Source: Prosthecomicrobium sp. N25 (GTDB lineage: Bacteria > Pseudomonadota > Alphaproteobacteria > Rhizobiales > Ancalomicrobiaceae). From it: a stretch of 64,000 bases of DNA. The notes below the pieces were generated by a model, which was not told the origin of the DNA, made no database searches, and saw only the letters and a program-made list of their open reading frames with translations. The stretch spans positions 2,577,418 through 2,641,417 of the forward strand of contig NZ_JBBCAT010000001.1 of the NCBI RefSeq assembly GCF_037203705.1, in the 5' to 3' direction. Shown here in pieces: positions 37,010 to 52,109 of the stretch. How positions within the stretch are numbered: the stretch's first letter is position 1; each line of letters starts with the position of its first letter. The position numbers and the translations under genes are program-made.

Positions 37010-37861
37010 TCAGCTTCTGCCGATGCGGCTGCGCGCCCAGTCGCCGATGACGCTGACCGCCAGCGTGCACATGAAGATGGCGACGCCCGGGGTGACCGCG
37101 ATCCACCAGCCGGTCAGGAGATAGTTGCGGCCGAAGCCCAGCATGTTGCCGAGGCTCGAGGCCGGCGGCTGCACGCCGAGGCCGAGGAAGCTCAGCGAGG
37201 TCTCCAGCAGGATCACCTCGGGAAAGTTGATGGTGGCGGTCACCAGGAGGGCGCTGATGATGTTCGGCAGCACGTGCCGGAGATAGATGCGCGTCCAGGA
37301 AAACCCGAGCGTCTGCATCGCCAGCACGTAGCCGCGCCCCTTGGAGGCGAGCGTCATGGCGCGCGAGAGCCGCGCAAAGCGCTCCCAGCCGAAAATCGAC
37401 AGGATGAACAGGAAGAGCACCAGGTTGGTGCCGAAGAAGGCCGTGATCGTGAGCGACACGATCACGAAGGGCACGGACGCCTGCGCGTCGACGGCGCCGA
37501 CCACCAGTTCGTCGGCGAGCCCGCCGAAATGCGCCGCCGCGATCCCGAGGCTGGTGCCGATGATGGCCGACAGGATCGTGGCGCCGAGGGCGAGGACGAG
37601 GCTGGTGCGCATCGAGGAGATCAGCCGGGCGAGGATGTCGCGGCCGAGGTCGTCGGTTCCGAGCGGGTGGGCGAGCTCGCCGCCGAGCCCGTAGGGTGGC
37701 TTCAGCCGGGCGAGGAGATCGAGCTGGGATTCGCTCGGGATCGGCAGGAGGGGGCTCAGCGTCACGAGGAAAAGGCAGAGCACCAGCCACGCCATGGCGA
37801 GGACCACCGAGACGGGCATCCCGGCGATGCCGCGGCCGGCGATGCGCAGGGCAGGGGTCAT
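37010..37861 (-). CDS. Dipeptide-type ABC permease, DppC-like
   Basis: A 283-residue permease with an N-terminal membrane helix (residues 13-40) and the DppC hallmark HPLGTDDLGRDILARLISSMRTSLVLAL, then five membrane segments. The EAA-type loop is LAMQTLGFSWTRIYLRHVLPN, and the late segment LLETSLSFLGLGVQPPASSLGNML is also typical. It ends the leftward run that begins at the MFS gene (43575). The set supplies uptake for the Rieske-oxygenase island. Confidence 0.93.
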   Translation of the reverse strand: MTPALRIAGRGIAGMPVSVVLAMAWLVLCLFLVTLSPLLPIPSESQLDLLARLKPPYGLGGELAHPLGTDDLGRDILARLISSMRTSLVLALGATILSAIIGTSLGIAAAHFGGLADELVVGAVDAQASVPFVIVSLTITAFFGTNLVLFLFILSIFGWERFARLSRAMTLASKGRGYVLAMQTLGFSWTRIYLRHVLPNIISALLVTATINFPEVILLETSLSFLGLGVQPPASSLGNMLGFGRNYLLTGWWIAVTPGVAIFMCTLAVSVIGDWARSRIGRS

Positions 37862-37872
37862 GGGCGCCTCCC

Positions 37873-38796
37873 TCAGTGCGCGACCGCCGCGGCGGTGCGC
37901 GGGTCGAGCCAGCCGTAGAGAATGTCGACGATCAGGTTGGTGGTGACCATCAGGATCGCCACCAGGAGTATGATCACCTGCACGACCGCGAGGTTGCGCT
38001 GGGCGACCGATTCCACGATGAGCCGGCCGATCCCCGGCCAGGCGAACACCGCCTCCACCACGGACCCGGCGCTGATCATGGCCCCGACGAGCAGCGGCAG
38101 GATGGTGACCAGCGGGATCAGGCAGTTGGGTGCGACATGGCGGACCATGATGGCCGTCTCCGACAGGCCGCGGGCGCGCGCCGCCGTGATGCAGGGCAGC
38201 CGGAGCGCGTCGATCATCCCGGAACGGACGAAGCGCGTGAAGATCGCCGCCTTGGCGAGGCCGATGGTCAGCACCGGCATGACCAGGTGGGCGGCGCTGC
38301 CCGTGCCGCCGCTCGGCAGGAGCGAGAGCCAGACCGAGAAGGTCAGGATCAGCAGGAGGCCCAGGAAGAAGTTCGGCAGCGCGAAGCCGAGGGTCGTGGC
38401 GGCCATGACCAGACCGTCGAGGCGGCTGCCGGGGCGGAGGGCCGCGATGGTGCCGAGCGGAACACCGACGCCGAGCATGACCAGCGCCGAGCAGCCGACC
38501 AGCTGCAGGGTCGCCGGTACGCGTTCGAGCACCACCGTCAGGGCGTCCTGCCCGTTCATCGTCGACCTGCCGAAATGGCCGTGCGCCACATTGACCAGAT
38601 AGACGACGTACTGGTCCCAGATCGTCCCCTCGAAGCCCCACTGCCGGCGGAAGCTCTCGATCACGTCCCGCGTCAGGTCGTCCGGGTTGAGAACCGCGAG
38701 CACCGGGTCGCCGGTCAGGCGGAGCGCGACGAAGACCAGGGTGACGATCACCCAGAGTGAGATGGCGGCGCGGAGGAGGCGGAGGCCGAGGCGCAT
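37873..38796 (-). CDS. Dipeptide-type ABC permease, DppB-like
   Basis: A 307-residue permease with the DppB signature opening LRLLRAAISLWVIVTLVFVALRLTGDPV and the FVRSGMIDALRLPCITAARARGLSETAIMVRHVAPN loop. The end VDILYGWLDPR is also typical. It lies 9 bp from the ATPase gene and 11 bp from the DppC-like gene, and forms the channel with the latter. Confidence 0.93.
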   Translation of the reverse strand: MRLGLRLLRAAISLWVIVTLVFVALRLTGDPVLAVLNPDDLTRDVIESFRRQWGFEGTIWDQYVVYLVNVAHGHFGRSTMNGQDALTVVLERVPATLQLVGCSALVMLGVGVPLGTIAALRPGSRLDGLVMAATTLGFALPNFFLGLLLILTFSVWLSLLPSGGTGSAAHLVMPVLTIGLAKAAIFTRFVRSGMIDALRLPCITAARARGLSETAIMVRHVAPNCLIPLVTILPLLVGAMISAGSVVEAVFAWPGIGRLIVESVAQRNLAVVQVIILLVAILMVTTNLIVDILYGWLDPRTAAAVAH

Positions 38797-38805
38797 GGCT
38801 TCACC

Positions 38806-40479
38806 CTATCCGTAGATGATGCGGGAGGGGGAGGGGCTCCAGTCCACCGGCGGCCGGCGGTCCGGATCGGGGGCGGCCTCGAAGTCCCGCCCCGGGATCG
38901 CGTCGATGAGCTTCTGCGTGTAGGGGTCGCGCGCGCCGTCCGAGAAGAGCGCGAGGGGAACGTCCTCTACGATCCGGCCGGAGCGCATGACGACCACGCG
39001 GTCGGCGATGTCGAGCACGATGCGCAGGTCGTGGGTGATGAGCAGGATGGCGATGCCGCGCTTCTCCCGGAGCCCCCGGAAGCAGTCCAGGATCTGCTTC
39101 TGCAGGCAGACGTCGACCGCCGAGAGCGGCTCGTCGGCGATCAGCAGGGGCGGCCCGAGCATGATCGCCCGCGCGATCACGACGCGCTGCGCCTCCCCGC
39201 CCGACAGGAAGGTGGGCCGCCTCTCCAGCACGCCCGCGTCGAGGCCGACGTCGGCGATGATCTCCCGGATGCGCGTCTCGCGCGCCGCGCGGTCCTTCCA
39301 CCCGTGCACCATCAGCACCTCGTGGAGCTGCGCCCCGACCTTCATGAGAGGGTCCAGGGAGTCCTTCGGGTGCTGGAACACCATCTGCGGACCGACCGCA
39401 TGGCGCGCCTTGTCGGTGACCGAGCCGACCGTGATGCGGCCCGCATCGGGCTTGACGAGGCCCATCGCCATCTTGGCCGCGGTGGTCTTCCCGCTCCCGC
39501 TCTCGCCGACCAGTGCGACGATCTCGCCCTCCGCGACCGAGAAGCTGATGCGGTCGGCGGCCACGACCGGCTCGCCGTGCCGGCCGCTCGGCCGGAAGAC
39601 CTTGTCGACGCCTTCGAAGGCGAGGCAGAGCTTCGGGGCACGGGCCGGCCGGGCCGCCGGCTCCCGCAGCTTGCCCAGGCTCGCCGCTTCGAACAGGGCG
39701 ACCGTGTAGTCGTGCGCCGGGGCGGCCAGGATCCGGTCCGTCGGGCCCTGCTCGACGATCCGGCCGGACTGCATGACCGCGATCGACGTCGCCCGGTCGG
39801 CGACGATGCCAAGGTCATGGGTGACCATCAGGACGCTGATGCCCGACGTCGCCCTGAGCTCGTCGAGAAGGTCGAGGATCTCCGCCTGCACCGACATGTC
39901 GAGCGCGGTCGTCGGCTCGTCGGCGATCAGCAGCGACGGATCGCCCATGAGCGCGAGCGCGATCGTCACGCGCTGGTTCAGGCCGCCGGAGAGCTGGTGC
40001 GGGTAGGCCGACAGCCGCGCTGACGGCTGGGGCACGTGGACGCGCGAGAGCGCATCGATCGCCCGCTCGCGCAGGTCGTCCCCGCCCGCCTCGGGATGGT
40101 GCAGCCGGAGCGTCTCGATCATCTGCGACCCGATCGTCCGCACCGGGTTGAGGGCGGCGAGCGGGTCCTGGAAGATCATGCCGACGGAATGCCGGCGATA
40201 CGCCCTCAGGGCGCCCGGCGACAGCGACCAGACGTCGGTGCCGTCGACCCGGATGCTGCCCTCCACCTCCGCCGCGAAGGGCAGCAGGCGCATGAGGGCG
40301 TGGCAGGTCACGCTCTTGCCGCTGCCGCTCTCCCCGACCAGGGCGAAGTAGGCGCCCCGGCCGAAGGAGAAGGACACGTCGTCGACCACGACCTTGCGCC
40401 CCTGCTCGGTCAGGGCGGTGACCTTGAGATGGTCGACCGCGCAGAGGGGGGCGCCGGAGCCGGTCGCGTCGCTCGTCAT
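38806..40479 (-). CDS. Dipeptide-type ABC ATPase, DppD-DppF fusion
   Basis: A 557-residue protein with two ATPase domains. The first (about residues 12-260) has Walker A GESGSGKS, signature LSGGLNQR and Walker B LLIADEPTTALD. The second (about 300-540) has GESGSGKT, LSGGEAQR and LLIADEPLSAVD. Such fused ATPases serve oligopeptide, nickel and opine-type importers. The ATG at 40479 starts the recognisable protein; the frame upstream to 40539 lacks homology. Its substrate is likely an amide or peptide-like aromatic given the neighbouring Rieske system. Confidence 0.92.
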   Translation of the reverse strand: MTSDATGSGAPLCAVDHLKVTALTEQGRKVVVDDVSFSFGRGAYFALVGESGSGKSVTCHALMRLLPFAAEVEGSIRVDGTDVWSLSPGALRAYRRHSVGMIFQDPLAALNPVRTIGSQMIETLRLHHPEAGGDDLRERAIDALSRVHVPQPSARLSAYPHQLSGGLNQRVTIALALMGDPSLLIADEPTTALDMSVQAEILDLLDELRATSGISVLMVTHDLGIVADRATSIAVMQSGRIVEQGPTDRILAAPAHDYTVALFEAASLGKLREPAARPARAPKLCLAFEGVDKVFRPSGRHGEPVVAADRISFSVAEGEIVALVGESGSGKTTAAKMAMGLVKPDAGRITVGSVTDKARHAVGPQMVFQHPKDSLDPLMKVGAQLHEVLMVHGWKDRAARETRIREIIADVGLDAGVLERRPTFLSGGEAQRVVIARAIMLGPPLLIADEPLSAVDVCLQKQILDCFRGLREKRGIAILLITHDLRIVLDIADRVVVMRSGRIVEDVPLALFSDGARDPYTQKLIDAIPGRDFEAAPDPDRRPPVDWSPSPSRIIYG

Positions 40480-40519
40480 CGATGCTGCTCCGGATGGGCC
40501 TGCGGGGCGTTCGCTCGGT

Positions 40520-42061
40520 TCAGGTCGCAATGCTCGCATTTTCCTTTCGGAAGTCCATGTAGACGTGCTTGTAGGGCGTCCACTTGACCTTCTTGTTCAT
40601 GCCGTAGAAGAGCCCCATCGTGTGCAGGATGATGGAGGGCGGATCGGCGTCGAAGATGTCGAGCATCTGCCCCATCGCCTTCTTGCGCTCCGCCGGGTCC
40701 ATGCTCGATTCGAGCACATGGCCGGCCTTGTAGAAGTCCTCGTTCGACCAGACGTCCTTCTCGGCCTCGTTGTAGGAGCGCCAGAGGGAGAAGAGCGGGT
40801 CGTTGATCAGGACCGGGTCGACGCCGTTGCGCATGCCGGTGCCCGGATAGGCCAGCATCTGACCGAAGTTTTCTTTGATCTGAAGGTCGATGTTGACCCC
40901 GACCGCATTCCACATCGAGACGAGGATCTGGGCCGTCGCCAGCTCCGGCCCGTAAGCGTTGGTGCGGATCCGGTAGGGGATCACCTCGCCCTTGTAGCCG
41001 CCCGCCGCGAGGAGCTTCTTGGCCTTGTCCGGGTCGTACACGAGGGCCGGCCGGTTCTTGTCGTAGAGCTCGCCGTAGGACGCCAGCTGGTGGCCGCGCG
41101 GGATCTCGACCAAGTCCTGCCAGAGCGCCTTGACGATTGCGGCCCGGTCGATGGCGAAGCCGAGCGCCTGCCGGACGCGGGGGTCCTTCAGGGCCGCATT
41201 GCGGGTGTCGAACTTGACCACCCGGATGCTGGCGATCGGGCCGCCCGCGATGACGAGGTTGGGGGACCGGGTCACGGCCGGGAACTGGTCCGGGGGCACG
41301 TCGGCGATCAGGTCGAAGTCGCCCGCCGCAAGGCCGGCGATTCGGGAGGAGAGCTCCGGCGAGGACCGGTAGACGAGGGTCGGGATCGACGGGGCGCCGC
41401 CCCAGTATTGCGGGAATGCGGCGAGCCGCACCTCCTCGGGGCTCAGGTTGACGACCGAGAACGGCCCCGTCCCGACGGGCTTGCGGGCGAAGCCGTCCCA
41501 TCCGCCGGCCTTCTGGAAGGCCGACTTGCTGATGATCTGCGAGCCCCAGGCGGTCAGGCGGAGTTCGAGCGCGGGATCGGCGATCTTCGAGACCACGCGC
41601 ACGGTCTTGCCGTCGACGGCCTCCACCTTGGCGATGGTGGAGAGGAGCTGCTGGGCGACGGCGAAGCCCGGCGAGGCCTTGTCGAACATGCGCTCGGTCG
41701 AGAAGGTGAAGAGCACGTCGTCGACCGTCAGCGGCGAGCCGTCGTGGAAGAGGACTCCGTCGCGCAGGGTGACGTCGATGGTCTTCTCGTCGACCCGCTT
41801 CCAGGACGACGCCAGCGCGGGCTTCAGCGCCCCGTCCTTCTTGAAGTCGACGTCGAGCAGGGTGTCGTAGATGTTGTACATGACCCGGTAGCCCGGGTTC
41901 GTCAGGTAGCGCAGCGGGTCGAGCTGCTTCGGGATCTCCTCGAGCGCGACCGTCAGGGGCTTGGTCTGGGCTCGTGCGAAGCCGGCCCCGAAGGGCCCGA
42001 GAAGACTGCCGGCGAGACTGCTGCCGAGCATTCCGTTGAACGTGCGTCTGGAAAGCTGCAT
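40520..42061 (-). CDS. Dipeptide-type ABC binding protein
   Basis: A 513-residue family-5 periplasmic binding protein with a twin-arginine-type signal (LSRRTFNGMLGSSLAGSLLG ... ARA). The mature part begins KPLTVALEEIPKQLDPLRYL and contains YDTLLDVDFKKDGALKPALASSWK and LRDGVLFHDGSPLTVDDV. It defines the ligand of the importer at 37010-40479. It is 68 bp downstream of the MFS gene, probably on the same transcript. Confidence 0.92.
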   Translation of the reverse strand: MQLSRRTFNGMLGSSLAGSLLGPFGAGFARAQTKPLTVALEEIPKQLDPLRYLTNPGYRVMYNIYDTLLDVDFKKDGALKPALASSWKRVDEKTIDVTLRDGVLFHDGSPLTVDDVLFTFSTERMFDKASPGFAVAQQLLSTIAKVEAVDGKTVRVVSKIADPALELRLTAWGSQIISKSAFQKAGGWDGFARKPVGTGPFSVVNLSPEEVRLAAFPQYWGGAPSIPTLVYRSSPELSSRIAGLAAGDFDLIADVPPDQFPAVTRSPNLVIAGGPIASIRVVKFDTRNAALKDPRVRQALGFAIDRAAIVKALWQDLVEIPRGHQLASYGELYDKNRPALVYDPDKAKKLLAAGGYKGEVIPYRIRTNAYGPELATAQILVSMWNAVGVNIDLQIKENFGQMLAYPGTGMRNGVDPVLINDPLFSLWRSYNEAEKDVWSNEDFYKAGHVLESSMDPAERKKAMGQMLDIFDADPPSIILHTMGLFYGMNKKVKWTPYKHVYMDFRKENASIAT

Positions 42062-42129
42062 CGTCGACTCTCCCTCGTTCCTGGCCGTCGGGCGCCGCAT
42101 CGCGGCCGGCTCTTCCTCTGTGGATTCCG

Positions 42130-43575
42130 TCAGGTCTTCGGTGGCGGCTTGCGTCCGTGTCCGCTGACGTCCGCCCCGGCGGCCGGATCGAGCCGCAGGA
42201 ACAGGAGCGCGGAGCAGCCCGCAACGCCGCCGACCGCGAAGAGGGCGGCGCTGAGGTCCGACGCCGTCACGGTCGCGCTGCCTGGGCCGACGAGAGCCTG
42301 AAGGATCAGGGCGCTCCCGGCCACGCCCGCAGCGTTGCCGACCTGCCGCGTCATTCCCGCGAAGGTCGTCGCCGCGCTCATCCGCTCGGGGGGCACGTTG
42401 GCATACGCGATGGTGTTCAGCGCCACGAACTGCAGGGAGCGGGCGAAGCCGAAGGCGAGCAGCACCGCCGCGATGGCGGCCGCCGGCGTGGCTTGGGTAA
42501 ACAGTGCGCACAGGATCGTCGCGACGGCGACCAGGAGCCCGTTGCCGACGAGCACGGTCCGGAAGCCGTACCGGCGCAGGATCGCCGGCGACGCCGCCTT
42601 CATGGCGAGCGCCCCGGCGGCCCCCGTGAAGGTCATCAGCCCGGAGGCGAAGGCCGAGAAGCCGAACCCGACCTGGAGCATCAGCGGCATGAGGAACGGC
42701 ACGGCCGCGGCCGCGACGATGAATAGGTTCCCCGAGCCGACCGAGCGGGCGAAGGTGTCGATGCGCAGCAGCGACGGATCGATCAGGGGCGCCGGATGCC
42801 GCGACGCATGCAGGACCGCGACGGTCAGCACCGCCGCCCCGGCACCGAGCAGCGCCAGCGGCAGGGCCGCCCCGGTTTCGCCCCGCGCGGCGATCTCCAG
42901 CGCCGCCACCAGGAGCGCGATCCCCGGTCCGATCGAAAGGAAACCGACCCAGTCGAGCGGCCGGCGGTCGCGGCCGCGATCCGGCGCGAAGTAGCGGGTC
43001 ACCAGGATGATGCCGAGAAGGCCGACCGGGACCTGAAGGAGGAACACCCAGCGCCAGGACACGTAGGTGGTCAGGAAGCCGCCGACCGGCGGGCCGATGA
43101 CGCTGCCGACCAGCGCGGGCGTGGTCACCCAGGACATGGCGCGCACGAACTCCGCCTTCTCGACGGCGCGCAACACCGCAAGCCGGCCGACCGGCACCAG
43201 CATGGCCCCGCCGGCGCCCTGGACGATCCGGGCGGCGATGAACTGCTCCAGGCTCTGGCAGAGCCCGCAGGCCACGGAGGCGAGCGTGAACAGCGCCATG
43301 GAAAGGCGGAACACCGTCTTCACGCCGAAGCGGTCCGCCGCCCAGCCGCTGACCGGAATGAAGGCGGCGAGCGCGACGAAATAGGCCGTCATGCCTGTGC
43401 CGGCCTCCACGGCGGACACGCCGAACGTCTGGCCGATCGACGGGAGCGCCGTGGTGATGACGGTCGCGTCGAAGTTCTCCATGAAGAACGCGCAGGCGAC
43501 GATCAGGGGCACGGTCATCGGTGTCGCCGCGCGACCCTCCGCCATCCCGGTCCCGTCCGCCCGTTGCACCGACAT
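42130..43575 (-). CDS. MFS transporter, DHA2/EmrB-QacA-like
   Basis: A 481-residue major-facilitator permease with about 14 hydrophobic segments. It has the motif-A-like loop GWAADRFGVKTVFR after segment two and the antiporter motif C-like region ALVGSVIGPPVGGFLTTYVSW near segment five. Relatives export drugs or aromatic compounds by proton exchange. ATG at 43575 is chosen (GGAGG upstream); an in-frame GTG at 43593 and ATG at 43545 are alternatives. The gene follows one of the three 45-bp promoter elements and heads the uptake part of the island. Confidence 0.88.
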   Translation of the reverse strand: MSVQRADGTGMAEGRAATPMTVPLIVACAFFMENFDATVITTALPSIGQTFGVSAVEAGTGMTAYFVALAAFIPVSGWAADRFGVKTVFRLSMALFTLASVACGLCQSLEQFIAARIVQGAGGAMLVPVGRLAVLRAVEKAEFVRAMSWVTTPALVGSVIGPPVGGFLTTYVSWRWVFLLQVPVGLLGIILVTRYFAPDRGRDRRPLDWVGFLSIGPGIALLVAALEIAARGETGAALPLALLGAGAAVLTVAVLHASRHPAPLIDPSLLRIDTFARSVGSGNLFIVAAAAVPFLMPLMLQVGFGFSAFASGLMTFTGAAGALAMKAASPAILRRYGFRTVLVGNGLLVAVATILCALFTQATPAAAIAAVLLAFGFARSLQFVALNTIAYANVPPERMSAATTFAGMTRQVGNAAGVAGSALILQALVGPGSATVTASDLSAALFAVGGVAGCSALLFLRLDPAAGADVSGHGRKPPPKT

Positions 43576-43648
43576 CCCGCAGCCGTCCTCCACGGGCAGG
43601 CCCTCAGGCCGAACCCGTACGTGGATTCATGCACGCCGGCACGCGCCC

Positions 43649-43693
43649 GTCTAATATAAGTTCGACGTCCAATTATTTAGCGGGGCAAATGAC
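43649..43693 (-). promoter_or_regulatory. 45-bp shared promoter element, copy A (before the MFS gene)
   Basis: On the plus strand the order is GTCTAATAT, then TTAT at offset 25, then GGGCAAAT ending at offset 42. Copies at 48361 and 52065 have the same blocks in the same register. Read on the minus strand, the end block gives TATATTAGAC, a good -10 box 71-78 bp before the MFS start. I infer an activator-dependent promoter, most simply under the LysR protein at 48408. The rest of the 312-bp gap (43576-43887) holds only a hairpin at 43793. Confidence 0.6.
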
Positions 43694-43792
43694 ATGGCCC
43701 CGCGAAGTCGACGCCCCGTAAAGGCAGGCGCCTTTCGCCGCGGCCGTCCGACCTTGCGCAAGCGACCGCCAGTTGTCGGCACAGTGGAATAT

Positions 43793-43809
43793 TTGGGCGG
43801 CTCGCCCAA
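43793..43809 (-). terminator. Hairpin after the Rieske operon
   Basis: Perfect 7-bp stem TTGGGCG / CGCCCAA around a 3-base loop, 79 bases past the stop at 43888. On the minus strand it is followed by ATATTCC. It may end the 48313-43888 transcript and so separate it from the MFS/ABC unit. Confidence 0.4.
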
Positions 43810-43887
43810 GTTCCGGTCAGTGGGACGCCCACGGCCTAACGGCGGCTCCGCCGAGCTGAGCCCGGTCCGGGGCGCGGGGGGCGCGTG

Positions 43888-44310
43888 TCAGCTCGAGAGG
43901 TTGGCGACGAGGTCGCGCAGGAAGTCCTCGTCGGGCGTCGTCACGAGGAGGTCCGCCGCCGCCCTGAGGTCGGCGAGCGCCGGGTCGCGGCCGGCATGCA
44001 TCCGGTCGAGCGGCTCGATCACCACGAAACTCAGCGAGCTCGGCGGCCGCTGCGGCACCGGGAAGGCGTCCGTCGGATCGCCGGAGACGTGGACCACGAC
44101 CGTCAGGTTGGGATGCGCGGGCTCCGCCCCGGGCGGCGACGCCTCCAGCCGGGGGCGGTCCGCCACCCGCAGGTTCGGCAGTTCGGCCCCGAGCCGGCCG
44201 ACGAGGTCGCGCGCCCGCGGCCCGACCCCGACCACGTCCACCACGCGCGGCGTGGAGTTGCGGTAGCCGGTGACGCGGACCCCGGGCCAGTCCTTCGGGA
44301 AGATGTGCAA
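43888..44310 (-). CDS. Hypothetical 140-residue protein of the Rieske operon
   Basis: TTG start at 44310 with a perfect AGGAGG five bases upstream, 23 bp after the SDR-like gene. The N-terminal half has a short glycine-containing alpha/beta stretch (VVDVVGVGPRARDLVGRLGAELPNL). The middle has VVVHVSGDPTDAFPVP and the rest is helical. No domain is recognised and there is no signal peptide or membrane helix. It is the last gene of the leftward unit beginning at 48313, so a role in the pathway or its regulation is likely but undefined. Confidence 0.7.
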   Translation of the reverse strand: MHIFPKDWPGVRVTGYRNSTPRVVDVVGVGPRARDLVGRLGAELPNLRVADRPRLEASPPGAEPAHPNLTVVVHVSGDPTDAFPVPQRPPSSLSFVVIEPLDRMHAGRDPALADLRAAADLLVTTPDEDFLRDLVANLSS

Positions 44311-44333
44311 GCGGGCCTCCTAGGAACCGAGGG

Positions 44334-45029
44334 TCAATCCATGAAGCGGCCGCCGGAGAGGTTCAGGCATTCGCCGGTGACGAAGCCCGAGTTCCGGGAT
44401 GCGAGGTAGAGGACCGCATGCGCGGCCTCCTCGGACCGGCCGAAGCGGCCGACCGGGATGCCCTTGACCAGCGTGTTGCGCCGCTCCTCCGTCATGGTCG
44501 CGACCTGCGGCTCGAACAGCGCGGTGGCGATCCCGTTCACGGTAACGCCGTGCTCGGCGAGCTCGCTCGCCATCACGCGCACGAAGGCGAGGAGCCCGCC
44601 CTTGGCCGCCGCGAAGGGGCCGACATTGTGGTGCGCCCCGGTCTTCGCCGACATCGACGCGAAGACGACGATGCGTCCGTGGCCGCGCGCGGCCATGCGC
44701 CGCCCGGCCTCCTGCATCAGGAAGGCGGGGGCCAGCAAGTCCGTCTCGACCACCTCGCGGAACTCGTCCGCGCCGATCGACAGGACCGGCTTGTTGCGCA
44801 CCGGCCGCGCGGAGATCACCAGGAGGTCGAGCCCGCCGAGCGCAGCCTCGACGCGATCGAGGAAAGCGACGGCCGCGTCCGGCTCCACCAGCACCGCCTC
44901 GCCCCCGCAGGGCTCGTCGACCGCCACGCGTGCGCCCGCCGCGACCAGCGCGTCGACCACCGCGGGACCGACGCCCTGGGCCGCCGCGACCACGACGGCC
45001 TTCATGCCCTTGAATTCGTCGGCGATCAT
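44334..45029 (-). CDS. SDR-fold protein with altered catalytic tetrad
   Basis: A 231-residue short-chain dehydrogenase-like protein. The dinucleotide loop is weak (AAAQGVGPAV instead of TGxxxGIG). The catalytic tetrad N-S-Y-K appears as D97, S125/S127, F139 and K143: the Asn and the Tyr are both replaced (TDLLAP; PFAAAKGG). The end AVLYLASRNSGFVTGECLNLSGG is fully family-like. The protein therefore may not be an active dehydrogenase of the usual kind; it could bind substrate or use another acid. It lies 14 bp downstream of the reductase gene. ATG at 45029 is preferred over 45005. Confidence 0.85.
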   Translation of the reverse strand: MIADEFKGMKAVVVAAAQGVGPAVVDALVAAGARVAVDEPCGGEAVLVEPDAAVAFLDRVEAALGGLDLLVISARPVRNKPVLSIGADEFREVVETDLLAPAFLMQEAGRRMAARGHGRIVVFASMSAKTGAHHNVGPFAAAKGGLLAFVRVMASELAEHGVTVNGIATALFEPQVATMTEERRNTLVKGIPVGRFGRSEEAAHAVLYLASRNSGFVTGECLNLSGGRFMD

Positions 45030-45043
45030 CGGCGTGGCCCTCG

Positions 45044-46270
45044 TCAGCGGCAGAGAGATTGAAGCGGGACGGCGGGGTCGGCGAGGGCCGTGGGATCCAC
45101 GACCGTACCCCCGGCGATCAGCGCCTTGACGGCGCGCATGTCCCGCGGGTTGTTCAAGGTGTTGCCCGCGACCACCCGGCCCTCGGCGAGGTAGAGCGCC
45201 GTGAACTTCGGCTCGTCCGGACCGCCGCGGAAGATAACCCGGTCCCAGCCGAGCGGAGCCCCGGCGATCTGCAGGTTGAAGTCGTACTGGTGGGTCCAGA
45301 ACCAGGGCACCTCGGCATAGGGCTCGCGCCGTCCGCCGACGATCCGGCCGACCGCGATCGCCTGGTTTTGCGCGTTCTGCCAGCTCTCCAGCCGGATGCT
45401 CCGCCCGAGGATGGGGTTGAAGTGGCGCGTCACGTCGCCGGCCGCGGAAATCGCCGAATCGGACGTCTGCCCGAAGGCGTCGACCACGATCCCGTCGTCC
45501 ACCACAAGGCCCGCCGCAGCGGCCAGCTCCGTGTTCGGGACGGCGCCGATCCCGGCGACCACCACATCGGCGTCGAGGGGCGGGCCTTCGGCGAAGTGCA
45601 GCCGGAGCCCGGACGCTCCCGGCTCGATGCCGGTGAGCCTCGCGCCGAACCGGAACGCCACGCCTTCCCGCTCGTGACGGCGCGCCATGGCGGCCCCGAC
45701 CTCGGGCGCGACCACCCGGGAGAGGGCAGCCGCCGCCACGTCGACAACCGTGACGGCGAGCCCGCGTTTGCGCGCCACCGAGGCGGCCTCGAGGCCGATG
45801 AATCCGGCGCCCACGACCGCCAGATGCCGCTCCGGCTGCAACTCGACCCTGAGGGCGAGCGAGTCGTCGACCGTGCGGATCACGTGGACCCGCGAGTCGT
45901 CCGCCCCGGGCACCGTCAGGCGGCGCGGCCGGGCCCCCGTCGCCAGGATCAGGCTGTCGTAGGCGATCCGCTCGCCGCCCGCGAGTTCGATCCGCGCCGC
46001 GGCCCGGTCGATGCCGGCGACGCGCTGGCCCAGGCGGAGGTCGATCCTGTTGTCGACGAACCACGTGTCCGGCCGGATCAGGGCCTTCTCGATCCCGCTC
46101 TCGCCCGCGAGGATCCCTTTCGAGACGGGCGGGCGCTCGTAGGGCAGGTGCGCCTCATCGCCGATCATGACGATCTCGCGCGCCGGATCGGTCTCGCGCA
46201 AGGCGATCACGGCCCAGGCGCCGGCCTGGCCGGCCCCGACCACCACGGTTCTCGATCGCTCGCTTCCCAT
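45044..46270 (-). CDS. FAD-dependent ferredoxin reductase of the Rieske oxygenase
   Basis: A 408-residue reductase of the HcaD/BphA4 family. The FAD site is VVVGAGQAGAWAVIAL near residue 9, followed by LPYERPPVSKGIL. The NAD site is LAVVGAGFIGLEAASVARKRG near residue 150 and the late FAD motif is ISAAGDVTRHFNP. It passes electrons from NADH to the small Rieske ferredoxin (gene at 49328), which feeds the oxygenase at 46318. It lies 47 bp downstream of the oxygenase gene. Confidence 0.92.
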   Translation of the reverse strand: MGSERSRTVVVGAGQAGAWAVIALRETDPAREIVMIGDEAHLPYERPPVSKGILAGESGIEKALIRPDTWFVDNRIDLRLGQRVAGIDRAAARIELAGGERIAYDSLILATGARPRRLTVPGADDSRVHVIRTVDDSLALRVELQPERHLAVVGAGFIGLEAASVARKRGLAVTVVDVAAAALSRVVAPEVGAAMARRHEREGVAFRFGARLTGIEPGASGLRLHFAEGPPLDADVVVAGIGAVPNTELAAAAGLVVDDGIVVDAFGQTSDSAISAAGDVTRHFNPILGRSIRLESWQNAQNQAIAVGRIVGGRREPYAEVPWFWTHQYDFNLQIAGAPLGWDRVIFRGGPDEPKFTALYLAEGRVVAGNTLNNPRDMRAVKALIAGGTVVDPTALADPAVPLQSLCR

Positions 46271-46317
46271 TTCGTCTCCTGCGGGCCCGCCGGGGCGCGG
46301 CGCCGGGCGACGCCCGC

Positions 46318-47598
46318 TCAGACCGCGACCGGTTCCTCGCCCTCGCGAACCCTCACGGCGTCGAGGGCCGCCTCCTTGAACGCCCCGCCGGCCGGCAGGA
46401 TGAAGGAAGCGGATCGCACGTTCTGGGCCGCGCTGTCGAGGCCGGGTGCCTTCTTGCCGGCCTGCACCGCCTGCGCCGCCTTCCTGAGGCGCATGCGCGC
46501 CATGATGATGGCGTTGTCGGTGGAGACGAGGTTCTCCCGGGTCCGGTCGGCGATCGGCCCCATGCTTTCCTGCAGGGAGGAATCCTGGATGGCGATGCCC
46601 TTGACGCCACTGTAGGTGCGCCCTGCCTTCTGGGCGGCCCGGTCCATCAGGTAGTCGTTGTCCATGTTGGCCTTGGGCCGGAACGTGCCGGGAATGAGGT
46701 CAGCGTGCACCCCGGCGCCGGCCTTCATGCCCTCGACCTCCTTGTCGGTGAGCGGCCGGGTCGGATGGAAGGTCATGGTCCAGGCCATGCAGTTGTGGTC
46801 GTCCATCGGCACCCAGGCGTGGCCGTTGATGGCGTTGCCCTTGTAGGGCGGGATCAGCGTGTACCAGGGGAACATCCACTGGGTGACGCGCCAGTAGTGG
46901 AAGCCCGGATCGGCGTCGCGGCGCGCGCCGATCAGCAGCCCACCGGGGCTTTCCAGGATGTCGAACACCGTGTTGGTCGACCGGGCGTACTTGGCGCCCG
47001 CGGTGTTCTTGTGCAGCGGGTCGGTGTTGAGGTCGCTGCGGTGCAGGAACGAGACGTGGCTGGAGTCGATACCGCCTTCCATCGCCTGCAGGTAGTTGCT
47101 CTCCTGCCAGCGCTTGGAGAGGAAGATGTGGCTCTGCGGCACCCGCATCCACTCGAAGTCCGGCAGCGGCGGCTGCTCCTCCGGCGGGCCCATGTAGGCC
47201 CAGACGACGCCGTTCTTCTCGACGACCGGATAGGACTTCAGCCGGATCTTCTGGCAGAAGCCGCTCGCCGCCGGCTCGGACGGCACCTCGATGCACTGCC
47301 CGGTCACGTCGTATTTCCAGCCGTGGTAGGGGCAGCGCAGCCCGTTCTCCTCGTTGCGCCCGAACCAGAGGGACACGCCGCGATGGGCACAGAACTCGTC
47401 CATCAGGCCGACCCGCCCGGACGTGTCCCTGATCGCGATGAGCCGCTCGGAGAGGAGCGCGACGCGCACCGGCGGGCAATCCGGTTCCGGCAGCTCCACC
47501 GACATCATGGCCGGGATCCAGTACCGGCGCATCAGTTCGCCCATCGGGGTTCCCGGCCCCGTGGCGCAGAGATACTCGTTCTGTTCGGCTGTGATCAT
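46318..47598 (-). CDS. Rieske non-heme iron oxygenase, phthalate 4,5-dioxygenase-like alpha subunit
   Basis: A 426-residue oxygenase. The Rieske cluster ligands are C70/H72 (FCAHRG) and C89/H92 (RCPYHG). The mononuclear iron site follows the phthalate-dioxygenase pattern EGGIDSSHVSFLH with D178, H181 and H186. This branch has only an alpha subunit and attacks aromatic acids and chloro- or alkoxy-benzoates, by dioxygenation or O-demethylation. The family partner is usually a two-domain FMN reductase, whereas here a separate FAD reductase and ferredoxin are present. The gene lies 26 bp after the fumarylpyruvate-hydrolase-like gene. Confidence 0.93.
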   Translation of the reverse strand: MITAEQNEYLCATGPGTPMGELMRRYWIPAMMSVELPEPDCPPVRVALLSERLIAIRDTSGRVGLMDEFCAHRGVSLWFGRNEENGLRCPYHGWKYDVTGQCIEVPSEPAASGFCQKIRLKSYPVVEKNGVVWAYMGPPEEQPPLPDFEWMRVPQSHIFLSKRWQESNYLQAMEGGIDSSHVSFLHRSDLNTDPLHKNTAGAKYARSTNTVFDILESPGGLLIGARRDADPGFHYWRVTQWMFPWYTLIPPYKGNAINGHAWVPMDDHNCMAWTMTFHPTRPLTDKEVEGMKAGAGVHADLIPGTFRPKANMDNDYLMDRAAQKAGRTYSGVKGIAIQDSSLQESMGPIADRTRENLVSTDNAIIMARMRLRKAAQAVQAGKKAPGLDSAAQNVRSASFILPAGGAFKEAALDAVRVREGEEPVAV

Positions 47599-47623
47599 GG
47601 CGATTGTCCTGGCGGTGGCCGGT

Positions 47624-48313
47624 TCAGGAAATGGTCACGTGGAGGTCGTCCAGCCCGTCGATGTGGCCGTGCATGCGGTCGCCGGGCTGCACCGGGCCGA
47701 CGCCCTCGGGGGTGCCGGTCATGATCAGGTCGCCCGGCACCAGTTCCACGTAGCCGGAGAGATAGGAGATCGTCTCCGCCACGTTCCAGATCTGGTCGGC
47801 GAGGTCGCCCGCCTGACGCCGCTCGCCGTTGACCGTCAGCCAGATCGCGCCCGCGCCCGGGTGTCCGACCGCGGAGACGGGCGAGAGGGCGGTGCAGGGC
47901 GCCGACTGGTCGAAGCCCTTGGAGAGGTCCCACGGGCGTTGCAGCTTCTTGGCGGTCGCCTGCAGGTCGCGGCGCGTCATGTCGAGCCCGACGCCGTATC
48001 CGAAGACGCAGTCGAGGGCCTTGTCGACGGGTATGTCCCGCCCGCCCTTGCCGATCGCCACCACGAGCTCGATCTCGTGCTGGTAGTCGGACGTCTTGGT
48101 GGGGTAGGGCACGGTCGCGTGGTTCGGCACGATGGCGTCGGCCGGCTTCATGAAGAAGAACGGCGGATCGCGGTTCGGGTCGCCGCCCATCTCGCGGGCA
48201 TGGGCCGCATAGTTGCGGCCGACGCAGTAGATGCGGCGGACCGGGAACTCGCCGCCTCCCACGACCGGGATGGTGGTGACGGGGGGCGGGGGAATGACCA
48301 TCGACATCGGCAC
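47624..48313 (-). CDS. Fumarylacetoacetate hydrolase-family protein, fumarylpyruvate hydrolase-like
   Basis: A 229-residue FAH-fold enzyme. Landmarks are IYCVGRNYAAHAREMG near residue 30, the FFFMKPADAIV segment, the metal-binding HEIELVVAIG (two Glu) and YGVGLDMTRRDLQ. Members hydrolyse C-C bonds of acyl-pyruvates made by gentisate-type ring cleavage, or decarboxylate oxaloacetate. It is the first gene of the leftward unit and is read from the element at 48361. No ring-cleavage dioxygenase is visible in the window, so that step must be elsewhere or replaced. Confidence 0.88.
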   Translation of the reverse strand: MPMSMVIPPPPVTTIPVVGGGEFPVRRIYCVGRNYAAHAREMGGDPNRDPPFFFMKPADAIVPNHATVPYPTKTSDYQHEIELVVAIGKGGRDIPVDKALDCVFGYGVGLDMTRRDLQATAKKLQRPWDLSKGFDQSAPCTALSPVSAVGHPGAGAIWLTVNGERRQAGDLADQIWNVAETISYLSGYVELVPGDLIMTGTPEGVGPVQPGDRMHGHIDGLDDLHVTIS

Positions 48314-48360
48314 GTCCTCTCGAGCGGATCAGGCGAGATTGGCATTGCCGGATATCGCTA

Positions 48361-48405
48361 GTCCAATATACCGTGTCGCCGGTCTTATGTGGTCAGGCAA
48401 ATAAG
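48361..48405. promoter_or_regulatory. 45-bp shared promoter element, copy B (between the FAH-family gene and lysR)
   Basis: Plus-strand GTCCAATAT, TTAT at offset 25 and GGCAAAT at offset 36-42 match copies A and C. On the minus strand GGTATATTGGAC gives a TATATT -10 box about 50 bp before the hydrolase gene. The right-hand block ends three bases before the lysR start (48408), so a bound protein could also control lysR itself. Confidence 0.6.
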
Positions 48406-48407
48406 TC

Positions 48408-49349
48408 ATGGAACTCCGGCAGTTCCGCTACTTCGTCGCGGTTGCGGAAGAGCTGCATTTCAGCCGTGCGGCACAGCGTCTCAACATCGGGCAGCCGCCC
48501 CTCACGCTGCAGATCCAGTCCATCGAGCGCGAGCTCGGCGTCGCGCTCCTCAAGCGCAACCGACGGAAGGTCGAGCTGACCGAGGCCGGCCGGCTCTTCC
48601 TGGACGAGGCGCGAGCCGCGCTCGCCCAGGCCGCCCGGGCGGTGGAAACCGCCAAGCGGGCCGCGCGCGGCGAGGTCGGCACCCTGCGGCTCAGCTTCAC
48701 CACCTCGGCCCCGATGCTGCGCGTGTTCACCCGCGCCGTCCGGCACTACCGCGCGATCATGCCCGACGTGCACCTGGAGCTGCGTATCCAGACCAGCCAG
48801 CAGATCCTGGACGGACTGCTCCTGGAGAAGATCGACCTCGGCTTCATCCGCCCGGCCGCCTCGGCGGTGATCCCGAAGGGGATCGAGGCGATCCCGGTCG
48901 TCACCGACCGGCTCATGCTGGCGCTTCCCGCCCAGCATGCGCTGGCGGCGGTGCCCGAACCGGTCCCGCTCGGCCTCCTCGCCGGGGTGCCCTTCGTGCT
49001 GCGTCCGCGCGGCACCGGGGCGGGCTTCTACGAGCAGGTCTTCGAGCTCTGCCACCGCGCCGGCTTCGTCCCCAGCATCGCCCAGGAGGCCTCCGAGGCG
49101 CCGACCATCCTCGGCCTCGTCGCGGCCGGGCTCGGCGTCACCATCGCGCCGGCCTCCCTGCAGGCCATGGCGGTCGAGGACATCGTCTGGCGCGAGCTCG
49201 ACCTCGGCCCCGAGGCGCTCTCCAGCATCCTGCTCGTCATCGCCGACAAGCAGCCGAGCGGCATCCGCTCGTCCTTCGTCAAGGTGGTGCGCGAGATGGT
49301 CGAAGCCGAGCGGCGCGGCTGGCTGCCTCAGGCGGGGTCCGCGATGTAG
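48408..49349 (+). CDS. LysR-family transcriptional regulator
   Basis: A 313-residue regulator with an N-terminal winged helix (residues 1-60: MELRQFRYFVAVAEELHFSRAAQRL ... QSIERELGVALLKR). The periplasmic-binding-like effector domain begins near residue 90. The opening is typical of the BenM/CatM branch controlling aromatic catabolism. It is divergent from the FAH-Rieske operon and its 3' end overlaps the ferredoxin gene tail-to-tail by 22 bp. I infer that it binds the 45-bp elements and responds to a pathway intermediate. Confidence 0.92.
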   Translation: MELRQFRYFVAVAEELHFSRAAQRLNIGQPPLTLQIQSIERELGVALLKRNRRKVELTEAGRLFLDEARAALAQAARAVETAKRAARGEVGTLRLSFTTSAPMLRVFTRAVRHYRAIMPDVHLELRIQTSQQILDGLLLEKIDLGFIRPAASAVIPKGIEAIPVVTDRLMLALPAQHALAAVPEPVPLGLLAGVPFVLRPRGTGAGFYEQVFELCHRAGFVPSIAQEASEAPTILGLVAAGLGVTIAPASLQAMAVEDIVWRELDLGPEALSSILLVIADKQPSGIRSSFVKVVREMVEAERRGWLPQAGSAM

Positions 49350-49654
49350 ATCCGCCCGTCCGCCACGGTGGGCGTCCAGACCCGGATCGGCTCCATGCAG
49401 GGCGGCGCGGTCGGCGCCCCGGTGCGCAGGTCGAAGCGACCCTGGTGGAACGGGCACTCGACCTCGCAGCCCTCGACGAAGCCGTCGGAGAGCTGGCCGG
49501 GCCCGTGCGAGCACAGGTCCGCGGTGACGTAGTACTGGCCGTCGGCGAGGAAGACCGCATAGGCGAAGCCGTCCCGCTCGACGCGGAACGGCAGGTCTTC
49601 GGAGACGTCCGAGGTATCGCAGAGATGCACGAGGGTGTCTGTCACGTCGGTCAT
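49328..49654 (-). CDS. Rieske-type [2Fe-2S] ferredoxin
   Basis: A 108-residue Rieske ferredoxin with cluster ligands C48/H50 (CSHG) and C67/H70 (CPFH). The intervening GPGQLSDGFVEGCEVE and following GRFDLRTGAPTAPP are as in biphenyl-type ferredoxins. ATG at 49654 is chosen from family length; the open frame upstream is not conserved. It should link the FAD reductase (45044) to the oxygenase (46318), although it lies in a different transcript, downstream of the PrpD- and aldolase-like genes. Confidence 0.92.
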   Translation of the reverse strand: MTDVTDTLVHLCDTSDVSEDLPFRVERDGFAYAVFLADGQYYVTADLCSHGPGQLSDGFVEGCEVECPFHQGRFDLRTGAPTAPPCMEPIRVWTPTVADGRIYIADPA

Positions 49655-49697
49655 GATCCGGGTCCGCGGGGCGCGGGCGCTCGCCGCCCGCCCTGCC

Positions 49698-51176
49698 TCA
49701 GGCCGCCTTGTTGACCGGCCACTGGGATTCGTCAAACGCCATGAGCGACGTGAGCGCCTTCACCGACTCCGCCTCCTCGATCGAGAAGAGCACCCGCGCG
49801 AGTGTCTCGGTCACCGCGCGTCCCGCATACGGGGCCGCGTTGGCGTGGAGCTTCTCCTCCAGGTCGGCTTCCGAGAAGGGCGCCTTCGGATGGCCCGGGA
49901 AGGGCTTCGCCGCCCCGTGATGGACGACGCCGTCGACCGTCTCGATCTCCACGCGCGACAGGTAGCCGTCCTCGGCGCGCTTCAGCTTGCCGCTGGCGAT
50001 CGTGCCGAGCTCCGGCGCCGGCACCACCTTGACCCGGTCGCGCACGAAGGCGCGGCGGGACGGCTCGAGCACCCGCTCGCGGGCGAAGCTGTCGACATGG
50101 ATGTAGCCGTCGAGGACGGCCGCGCCGACGATGTAGGGCATCGAATGGTCCGCCGTCTCCCGCGAGATCGGGTTCCACGGGTCCTGGCGCAGCTCGACCA
50201 GATGGTGGTAGGCGCCCTCCTCGGAGAACACCCGCACCTCCTTGATGCGCGAGACGTCCCCGACCTTGGCGCGGGCCTCCAGCGCCGCCCGGATCGCGCT
50301 CTGCCCGACGGAGCCGACCGGCCAGAGCTTCATGTAGGTCTCGGCGATCCGGCCGAGCGGCCGCGACGCATCGAGCCGCTCGCGCAGTATCGGCAGCGGG
50401 TCGTCCTTGGCCTGCAGCTTGGCGCTGAAGCCCATCTTGCCCGTGAAGGGCCGCACGGCGGCCTCCACGCCGACCGATGCGAGAAGCGCGGCCTGCAGCG
50501 CGTTGCGCACCGCGTCGGAGCCGTTGAAGCGCTTCCACATGGTGAGGTCGCCGCGGCGGTTGAGCTCGCAGGACTCCACCTCGTCGCTGGCGAAGTGCGG
50601 GATCACGGTCATCCCGTAGGCCTCACGCGCCTGCGTCTCGTCGAGCTTCAGGAGCCGCGCGAAGGCCGCGGTGGCGCCCGGGCCGACGAGGTTCGTGTAG
50701 TCCCAGCCGCCCGGCGCCGTCGAATAGGCGTCGAACAGGGCGGCCACCACCTCGTAGCCGACCGCCAGCGCCGACAGGGTCTCGGCCCCGCTGGCCCCGG
50801 TCCACTCCGCGCAGGCGATCACGCCCGCCACGATGTCGCTCGGATGGCCGCTGTTGCGCCGGCCGACGAAGAAATCGTTGTAGTCGTAGCAGCGCAGCAG
50901 CACGCCGTTGGCGAGTGCTGCGAGCTCCGGCGTGGTACGCACCGTGGAACCCCAGACGGTCTGGCCGCCGGGCACGGGAAAGCGCTCCACGTGGCGGCGG
51001 GCCGCCCGGGCCGCCGGATGGTCGAGCGCGCCGAGCGAGACCGCGATGGAATCGCCCAGCACGCGCTTCGCCGCGCCGGTGATCTCGGGCGACAGGCTGC
51101 CCGAGACCCCGACCGTGAAGGCGGCCAGGTGCTCGGCGATCTCGTCGCGGTAGACCGGGATCTGACCCTCGATCAT
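49698..51176 (-). CDS. MmgE/PrpD-family protein (second copy)
   Basis: A 492-residue MmgE/PrpD-fold protein, distinct in sequence from the one at 23817. Segments include GDSIAVSLGALDHPAARAARRHVERF, DYNDFFVGRRNSGHPSDIVAGVIA and MWKRFNGSDAVRNALQAALLA. It starts within the stop of the aldolase gene (ATGA overlap), so the two are coupled; the ferredoxin gene follows 43 bp on. A dehydratase, epimerase or decarboxylase step on a carboxylic acid from the aromatic pathway is inferred. Confidence 0.85.
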   Translation of the reverse strand: MIEGQIPVYRDEIAEHLAAFTVGVSGSLSPEITGAAKRVLGDSIAVSLGALDHPAARAARRHVERFPVPGGQTVWGSTVRTTPELAALANGVLLRCYDYNDFFVGRRNSGHPSDIVAGVIACAEWTGASGAETLSALAVGYEVVAALFDAYSTAPGGWDYTNLVGPGATAAFARLLKLDETQAREAYGMTVIPHFASDEVESCELNRRGDLTMWKRFNGSDAVRNALQAALLASVGVEAAVRPFTGKMGFSAKLQAKDDPLPILRERLDASRPLGRIAETYMKLWPVGSVGQSAIRAALEARAKVGDVSRIKEVRVFSEEGAYHHLVELRQDPWNPISRETADHSMPYIVGAAVLDGYIHVDSFARERVLEPSRRAFVRDRVKVVPAPELGTIASGKLKRAEDGYLSRVEIETVDGVVHHGAAKPFPGHPKAPFSEADLEEKLHANAAPYAGRAVTETLARVLFSIEEAESVKALTSLMAFDESQWPVNKAA

Positions 51177-51973
51177 CAGGTATATCCTCTGTCCTTGAAC
51201 GTGTCGGCCGCGGTGCCGCGTGCTGCCGTCAGTTCCTTCTCGACGAAGGCGGGCAGGATCGCGGTGTCCTTGGCGAAGGTGATGAAGCGGTAGCCCATGT
51301 CGGCGAATTTGCGCGCCGCCTTGCCGGACCCGCACTGGATGCCGGGCACGATGCCGTGCCGCTGGCAGGCCTCCAGGATCCGCCGCACGGCGGCGACGTG
51401 CTCCGGCTCCTCCTTGTCGAGGTTGGGCGGCAGCCCGAGCCCCAGCGCGAGGTCGGCCGGCCCCACATAGATCCCGTCGAGCCCCGGGGTGGCGCAGATC
51501 TCGTCGATGTTCTCGAGCCCCTTGCGGGTCTCGACCATCACGAGGCACATCACCTCGTCGCCGACCACCGCCATGTCCCGGCTGTCCATCACCATAGAGG
51601 CGCGCGCCGGGCCGAAGGACCGATGCCCCTTGGGGTAGTAGCGGCAGGAGCGCACCGCGCGGGCGGCCTCCTCGGCCGTCTCGATCATCGGGACGACGAC
51701 GCCCTGCATGCCGGCGTCGAGCGCCTTGCCGATCATCCAGGCCTCGTTGGCCGGCACGCGGGTCATGCCCACGACGCCGCGACCCTCGATGGCGCGCAGC
51801 ATCTCCACCGCCACCGAGTAGTCGATCAGCCCGTGTTGCTGGTCGATGCAGACATAGTCGATGTCCCCGACGCACATCAGCTCGGCCGCGAAGGCGGTCG
51901 GAAGCACCGCCCAGGCCCCGAAGACCGTGCCGCCCGACTTCAACTTCGACCGCAGAACGCGAGCCAGTGCCAT
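51176..51973 (-). CDS. HpcH/HpaI aldolase/citrate lyase-family protein
   Basis: A 265-residue class II aldolase of the HpcH/HpaI type. Landmarks are LKSGGTVFGAWAVLP near residue 15, CIDQQHGLIDY, the metal-binding MVETRKGLENIDEI, and GIYVGPADLALGLG. Such enzymes split 4-hydroxy-2-oxo acids into pyruvate and an aldehyde, a usual last step of meta-type aromatic degradation. ATG at 51973 suits the family; an ATG at 51994 is also open. It is the first gene of the unit read from element C (52065) and is coupled by ATGA to the PrpD-family gene. Confidence 0.87.
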   Translation of the reverse strand: MALARVLRSKLKSGGTVFGAWAVLPTAFAAELMCVGDIDYVCIDQQHGLIDYSVAVEMLRAIEGRGVVGMTRVPANEAWMIGKALDAGMQGVVVPMIETAEEAARAVRSCRYYPKGHRSFGPARASMVMDSRDMAVVGDEVMCLVMVETRKGLENIDEICATPGLDGIYVGPADLALGLGLPPNLDKEEPEHVAAVRRILEACQRHGIVPGIQCGSGKAARKFADMGYRFITFAKDTAILPAFVEKELTAARGTAADTFKDRGYT

Positions 51974-52064
51974 CCCGAGGGTCCATTGCTGCATGCGGCC
52001 CGATGGAATGCGCTGCAGCCTGCGACATTCATCTGGATCGAATTAAGTCTCTGCCGGCATGCCC

Positions 52065-52109
52065 GTCCAATATGGATTCGCGCGGGATTTATTCGGGGCG
52101 ACGAATGAC
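52065..52109 (-). promoter_or_regulatory. 45-bp shared promoter element, copy C (before the aldolase gene)
   Basis: Plus strand: GTCCAATAT, TTCG at offset 13, TTTATT at offset 24-29 and CGAATGAC at the end. This copy is closest to copy A, sharing the first and last blocks, TTCG and the AT-rich middle in the same register. On the minus strand CATATTGGAC could be the -10 region 92-99 bp before the aldolase start. Confidence 0.6.

Follow-up and report, generated by a model that had tools for sequence, protein, structure and literature searches.

Three leftward operons in a 64,000-nucleotide stretch of contig NZ_JBBCAT010000001.1 of Prosthecomicrobium sp. N25 (hereafter the window) are each preceded by a 45-bp segment of similar sequence, raising the question of whether these segments mark one regulon, and of which regulator would act through them. 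Operon A encodes a transporter of the major facilitator superfamily (MFS) and an ABC importer, operon B a fumarylacetoacetate-hydrolase (FAH) family enzyme with a Rieske oxygenase, and operon C an aldolase, a PrpD-family protein and a ferredoxin, with operon boundaries taken from gene spacing. The comparisons below indicate that the three elements are very probably copies of a single LysR-dependent promoter, and that the LysR protein encoded at 48408-49349 is predicted to bind all of them and to activate the three leftward operons.

A 45-bp element present three times in the genome

The segments beginning at 43649 (A), 48361 (B), and 52065 (C) have in common the sequence GTCYAATAT-N15-TTAT-N7-GNCRAAT, oriented alike and in exact register, with GTCYAATAT at offset 1, TTAT at offset 25, and GNCRAAT at offsets 36-42 of each element. 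Direct inspection of the three copies, in which 20 of the 45 columns are invariant, bore out the original prediction of a shared three-block element at these positions. The window was scanned with the pattern allowing up to three mismatches, yielding 3 matches, and none was obtained in any of 100 dinucleotide shuffles. When the whole genome (5,951,857 bases in 17 contigs) was scanned at the same tolerance, the same three matches alone were recovered and the reversed-pattern control gave none; a profile derived from these copies likewise found no further genome match at E ≤ 10.

The original prediction had named two outcomes that would speak against it, namely shuffled sequence aligning equally well and a matrix hitting many unrelated sites. 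Neither was observed. The best ungapped alignment of the three intergenic regions, scored by rarity-weighted identical columns, reached 48.65, while 242 dinucleotide shuffles had a mean of 25.8 (sd 1.5) and a maximum of 31.0, and the three copies stood alone in the 5.95-Mb genome in both scans. The GTCYAATAT block by itself fell short of significance (4 matches with one mismatch allowed versus 2.0 expected, with at least 4 in 13 of 100 shuffles). Across 100 other genomes, the pattern at up to two mismatches gave 10 matches outside its own genome versus 9 for the reversed control, which is chance level.

Pairwise identity of the copies is 0.53-0.62 within the 45 bp and 0.20-0.35, the level expected by chance, in the 60-bp flanks. 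Because identity is confined to the element, a recent duplication of the intergenic region was ruled out. The occurrence of three same-orientation copies within 8.5 kb could also suggest recently repeated DNA or the remnant of a mobile element, having no regulatory role, but given the chance-level flanks and the presence of copies at corresponding genes in two other families, as described below, we regard this as scarcely credible.

The element in related gene clusters

Sampled genomes of the same order (397) and of the same class (385) were searched for the LysR protein. Related clusters were identified in G210, of the same order, with a LysR of 59% identity, and in G610 and G774, of one genus within the same class, with LysR proteins of 62-63% identity. 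The element is present in these clusters, which span two other families (G210; G610/G774), with three copies in G210 (1, 3, and 4 mismatches) and two each in G610 and G774 (1-2 mismatches). One element adjoins lysR in each of the three genomes. The elements of G610 and G774 lie between lysR and its divergent neighbor and at the 5' end of the reading frame for the aldolase, the start of which is provisional, and one of the three in the stretches fetched from G210 is on the opposite strand, before a rightward operon.

Many of the window genes recur in these clusters. The Rieske oxygenase is 75% identical in G210 and 72% in G774, with no match in the G610 stretch examined, while PrpD is 63% and the ABC importer parts are 57-74% identical in the related clusters. 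The FAH enzyme (70%) and aldolase (71%) have counterparts in G610 and G774 and were not found in the G210 stretches examined; the reductase and dehydrogenase have counterparts of about 50% identity in G210 and were not found in the stretches examined of G610 and G774.

Scanning 19 other genomes with a model trained solely on the three window copies gave six matches at E ≤ 10, the best five of them (E 0.005 to 0.66) in the related clusters, where the model recovered both elements of G774 and both of G610. It gave no match in G671 or G748, whose LysR proteins are 52% and 49% identical, and one weak match (E 0.98) in 14 genomes of the same family, among which the best LysR match is 43% identical and 2 of the 14 have any match at E ≤ 1e-40. 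A second model, built on ten elements and run on eight genomes (150 first-look candidates were scored in seven of the eight), returned the ten elements, as it must by construction, and two weak matches, one in G610 (E 0.28) and one in G671 (E 2.75). This model had no match in two genomes of the same genus. As these two also lack any LysR match at E ≤ 1e-40, the cluster looks to be patchily distributed.

Two of the G210 elements face apart within one intergenic region (L135:12437-12539), with PrpD encoded leftward and an operon for a 2-hydroxyacid dehydrogenase, an SBD_N-NBD_C protein, a class II aldolase, and an MFS transporter encoded rightward. The pair presumably serves the same regulator and partly different pathway genes.

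Promoter geometry beside LysR relatives

The position of the element's parts within a promoter was examined using LysR relatives. The best 80 of 394 LysR matches from a genome-contig scan (33-48% identity) provided 79 usable upstream regions, a second set of 29 loci, among them the G210 locus, came from searching the order and the family, and 300 draws of control windows were made from the same loci. At least eight of the nine letters of GTCCAATAT were found within 100 bp of the lysR start at 22 of the 79 loci (control mean 0.5, maximum 4) and, by the same criterion, at 9 of the 29 (control mean 0.17, maximum 2). The contigs with ATATTGGAC beside lysR are labeled Proteobacteria, Chloroflexi, Verrucomicrobia, Cyanobacteria, and Eremiobacterota, several being metagenome bins. 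Outside both counts, a Cupriavidus LysR of 44% identity (L103) is accompanied by all nine letters, and the region upstream of an Azospirillum LysR of 47% identity (L102) is without the 9-mer, the best match being 6 of 9.

Alignment anchored on the 9-mer yielded 23 elements within 130 bp, and 18 once near-duplicates were removed. Columns 28 and 32 past the ATATTGGAC start are A and T, respectively, in 16 of the 18 each, and a T-N11-A pair at columns -32 and -20 (T in 14, A in 14) is centered 26 columns before the block. With spacers of 5-63 bp tested for the second-position A and sixth-position T of a -10-like hexamer, a single peak was obtained at 18 bp in both sets, with 30 of 34 letters matching in the first set (17 elements) and 14 of 18 in the second (9 elements); the next best spacer gave 14 and 8. 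In the related clusters, whose elements number seven, 11 of 14 diagnostic letters are present at the same spacer.

It is this signal, 18 bp past TTGGAC in the relatives, that leads us to read minus-strand ATATTGGAC as a probable -35 region (hexamer TTGGAC) and not as a -10, a reading that rests on the relatives, as the -10s of the window are themselves weak. The original prediction had assigned (T/C)ATATT as the -10, with no good -35 and with the upstream blocks as an activator site near -35. TATATT does resemble a -10 hexamer in A and B, and the -10s predicted for the window at 18 bp are weak, but the diagnostic letters of the relatives (17 + 9 elements) peak solely at 18 bp beyond TTGGAC. 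Furthermore, with TATATT as the -10 the palindrome formed by the upstream blocks would be centered near -37 and not about -65, contrary to the LysR norm, for which excerpts of the literature give inverted repeat IR1 at -66 for CynR (PMC5002191) and at -60 for CutR (PMC12609908). The earlier assignment now appears improbable and was abandoned. The -10 position in the relatives instead places the upstream palindrome near -65, where a LysR recognition site would usually be expected. The ATATTGGAC block is conserved near -35 among elements chosen for that 9-mer, and contact by the regulator or by RNA polymerase is indistinguishable from sequence; the block is possibly also an activation site.

Several observations weigh against a single LysR-dependent promoter in triplicate. 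The related clusters were located via their LysR, making the link between element and LysR partly a product of the search design, and the model trained on the window copies found just one of the three G210 elements. The 9-mer at eight of nine letters is absent from 57 of the 79 and 20 of the 29 relatives, and thus it marks only part of the LysR family. Just 7 of 17 relatives in one set and 2 of 9 in the other have the full TAnnnT hexamer at 18 bp. At that spacer the window copies agree poorly with the -10 (2 of 6 diagnostic letters), and G210c is without a clear palindrome.

With the tie between element and LysR resting on sequence and on that manner of search, the element might be bound by a different regulator, the neighboring LysR being a mere passenger. 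We consider this quite unlikely, since the five best matches across the 19 genomes fall in clusters whose LysR is 59-63% identical, the 14 same-family genomes without such a LysR gave one weak match, and the block also adjoins the lysR genes of many relatives at 35-48% identity, where a palindrome commonly accompanies it. The original proposal that the three leftward operons form one regulon, probably under the neighboring LysR, is well supported by the uniqueness of the element in the genome and by its presence in clusters having a related LysR.

On plasmid pAKD34 (L104:2946-2954), TTCCAATCC stands at -40 before a LysR gene divergent from a dihydroxy-acid dehydratase gene, and is perhaps a degenerate form of the block. 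In literature text, TATTGGAC together with LysR-type had no match, though published figures might still show the block, and ATATTGGA with LysR had matches that were on other subjects as judged by title only, figures being outside the search.

Presumed regulator, predicted operators, and palindrome spacing

By domain criteria, the protein encoded at 48408-49349 qualifies as a LysR-type transcriptional regulator, with an N-terminal HTH_1 domain (E 8e-22) and a C-terminal LysR_substrate domain (E 1.3e-33). Its best relative of solved structure is 7w06 (E 1.8e-55), followed by CbnR (1ixc), BenM, and CatM. The lysR ATG starts two bases beyond element B, confirming that this copy adjoins the lysR start, and the FAH gene lies on the other side of the element. 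The divergent regulator-target layout with a site beside the regulator start is therefore found at element B, while A and C have no adjacent lysR. No Shine-Dalgarno sequence was seen before the ATG (48384-48410) and an equally tight arrangement is present in a number of relatives; the lysR leader may be very short or absent.

Table 1. Predicted regulatory sites and genes of the three operons; coordinates are those of the window.
Feature	Position	Strand	Basis
lysR, presumed regulator, 313 aa	48408..49349	+	Pfam HTH_1, LysR_substrate
LysR recognition palindrome A, ATTTG-N6-TAAAT (predicted)	43675..43690	-	Best inverted repeat, center at element position 11.5
-35/activation block A, ATATTAGAC (predicted)	43649..43657	-	Equivalent of ATATTGGAC block beside relatives' lysR genes
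Weak predicted -10, promoter A, ATGAAT, 18-bp spacer	43625..43630	-	Position of relatives' -10 signal
LysR recognition palindrome B, CTTAT-N12-ATAAG (predicted)	48384..48405	-	Two bases from lysR start codon
-35/activation block B, ATATTGGAC (predicted)	48361..48369	-	Relatives' block and -10 geometry
Weak predicted -10, promoter B	48336..48342	-	CCAATC at 18 bp, CAATCT at 19 bp
LysR recognition palindrome C, ATTCG-N6-CGAAT (predicted)	52091..52106	-	Inverted-repeat scoring
-35/activation block C, ATATTGGAC (predicted)	52065..52073	-	Relatives' block
Weak predicted -10, promoter C, TTAATT, 18-bp spacer	52041..52046	-	Position of relatives' -10 signal
MFS transporter, first gene of operon A	42130..43593	-	Pfam PF07690
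ABC importer, operon A: binding protein SBP_bac_5, fused ATPases, two permeases	37010..42100	-	Pfam
FAH family enzyme, first gene of operon B	47624..48313	-	Pfam PF01557
Rieske oxygenase (Rieske + LigXa_C), operon B	46318..47598	-	Pfam
FAD-dependent ferredoxin reductase, operon B	45044..46270	-	Pfam; best NCBIfam AndAa, below cut-off
Short-chain dehydrogenase, operon B	44334..45092	-	Pfam
HpcH/HpaI aldolase, first gene of operon C	51176..51994	-	Pfam PF03328
MmgE/PrpD-family protein, operon C	49698..51200 (searched stretch, slightly exceeds gene)	-	Pfam
Rieske-type ferredoxin, operon C	49328..49735	-	Pfam PF00355

An NCBIfam scan of eight regulon proteins listed no family that reached its cut-off (for three of the proteins, among the best 25 families). 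The best NCBIfam models for the MFS protein, below their cut-offs, are of efflux type (MdtD, EmrB family), despite the neighboring importer. At the end of operon B, a small minus-strand open reading frame (43888-44310) has no Pfam family at E ≤ 0.001; it is 40% identical over 150 residues to a frame beside the G210 dehydrogenase, and encodes a conserved protein.

The TTAT and GNCRAAT blocks appear as parts of the two arms of an inverted repeat, ATTYG-N6-CRAAT. The site B form, CTTAT-N12-ATAAG, is also present in G610 and G774, and a palindrome similar to that of C sits at the 5' end of their aldolase frame. In the -10 candidates of promoters A and C the last T alone matches, of the two diagnostic letters, while CAATCT of promoter B is identical to the hexamer of G210a, whose spacer is 18 bp.

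From this arrangement we infer binding by this LysR, activation, an inducer, autorepression, and the operon structure. Reading along the minus strand, a palindrome some 65 bp upstream of the predicted transcript start would be followed by a 14-17 bp spacer, ATATTGGAC, about 18 bp, and a weak -10. LysR would occupy the palindrome, ATTYG-N6-CRAAT in A and C and CTTAT-N12-ATAAG around the same center in B. Upon induction by a pathway metabolite, it would contact the region of the -35 block and recruit RNA polymerase at the three weak promoters. The importer, hydrolase-Rieske oxygenase-reductase-dehydrogenase, and aldolase-PrpD-ferredoxin operons would then rise together, serving uptake, oxidation, and later steps. 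As site B adjoins the lysR start, LysR should also repress its own gene.

A palindrome predicted near -65 together with the block would match the published LysR layout, as far as described in excerpts of PMC5002191, PMC6449761, and PMC9705993. CatR and ClcR promoters have a recognition site and an activation site (excerpts of PMC6449761; PMC9705993), and systems of the CatR/ClcR/CbnR/BenM type, to whose members CbnR, BenM, and CatM the window regulator is related, share the divergent lysR and target, the palindrome near the regulator start, and a second element nearer the target promoter (excerpt of PMC6449761). They differ in their published motif, AkACC-N5-GGTAT as opposed to ATTYG-N6-CRAAT here, and in serving a catechol pathway, where the present three operons include a Rieske oxygenase and PrpD. 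CutR of Mycobacterium sp. JC1 resembles the present system in its even palindrome with a 6-bp spacer (TTAAG-N6-CTTAA) and a site near -60; it differs in being, in the excerpt of PMC12609908, a dimer with A30 and an activation site not identified there, where the window protein has P30 and the ATATTGGAC block. In the LysR system CynR-cynTSX of E. coli, too, regulator and target are divergent, and inverted repeats lie at -66, -44, and -34 (excerpt of PMC5002191). On inspection the E. coli cynR-cynT intergenic sequence was without ATATTGGAC, and CynR therefore neither supports nor refutes the -35 reading.

By our own palindrome scoring, in which the margin for copy A is narrow, the best center is 11.5 (even; the ATTYG-N6-CRAAT type, T-N12-A) in 9 of the 10 elements of the four clusters, or 7 of 8 with G610/G774 near-duplicates counted once, the exception being G210c, and the right-arm ATAA is invariant in all ten. 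The outgroup elements have center 11.0 (odd, T-N11-A) in 17 of 26 and 11.5 in none; the remaining nine have other centers, with 11.0 tying in two (L015 and L120). The canonical T-N11-A was not the best palindrome in any window copy, all three being T-N12-A with an off-center T-N11-A present. Since an excerpt of PMC12609908 cites T-n10-A, T-n12-A, and T-n13-A variants for OccR, PcaQ, and IlvY, this result lowers only the claim to canonical form. T-N12-A spacing is not new to the LysR family, CutR and PcaQ, cited together in that excerpt for T-N12-A sites, being already known; the spacing of the regulator site is slightly unusual within a familiar kind of bacterial wiring.

The palindrome arms have changed from the ATA common in the outgroup to ATT while ATATTGGAC stayed, making the block more likely to belong to the core promoter than to be a duplicate recognition half-site. 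A specificity code pairing Leu after PPL[S/T] with ATT half-sites was rejected, as Leu goes together with ATA half-sites in L144, L148, L153, and L154.

Our analysis predicts one inducible regulon for an uncharacterized Rieske-oxygenase pathway with its own importer, and supplies an exact predicted operator and a corrected promoter map. The conserved -35 block is a simple handle for targets of part of this LysR group. We would give about even chances that, among BenM/CbnR-like LysR regulators, ATATTGGAC is a promoter block fixed in ancient times, beside which the palindrome drifts in sequence, with the right arm one base out (T-N12-A) in this clade. If true, the evolution of operator geometry next to an unchanging core promoter could be put to the test here.

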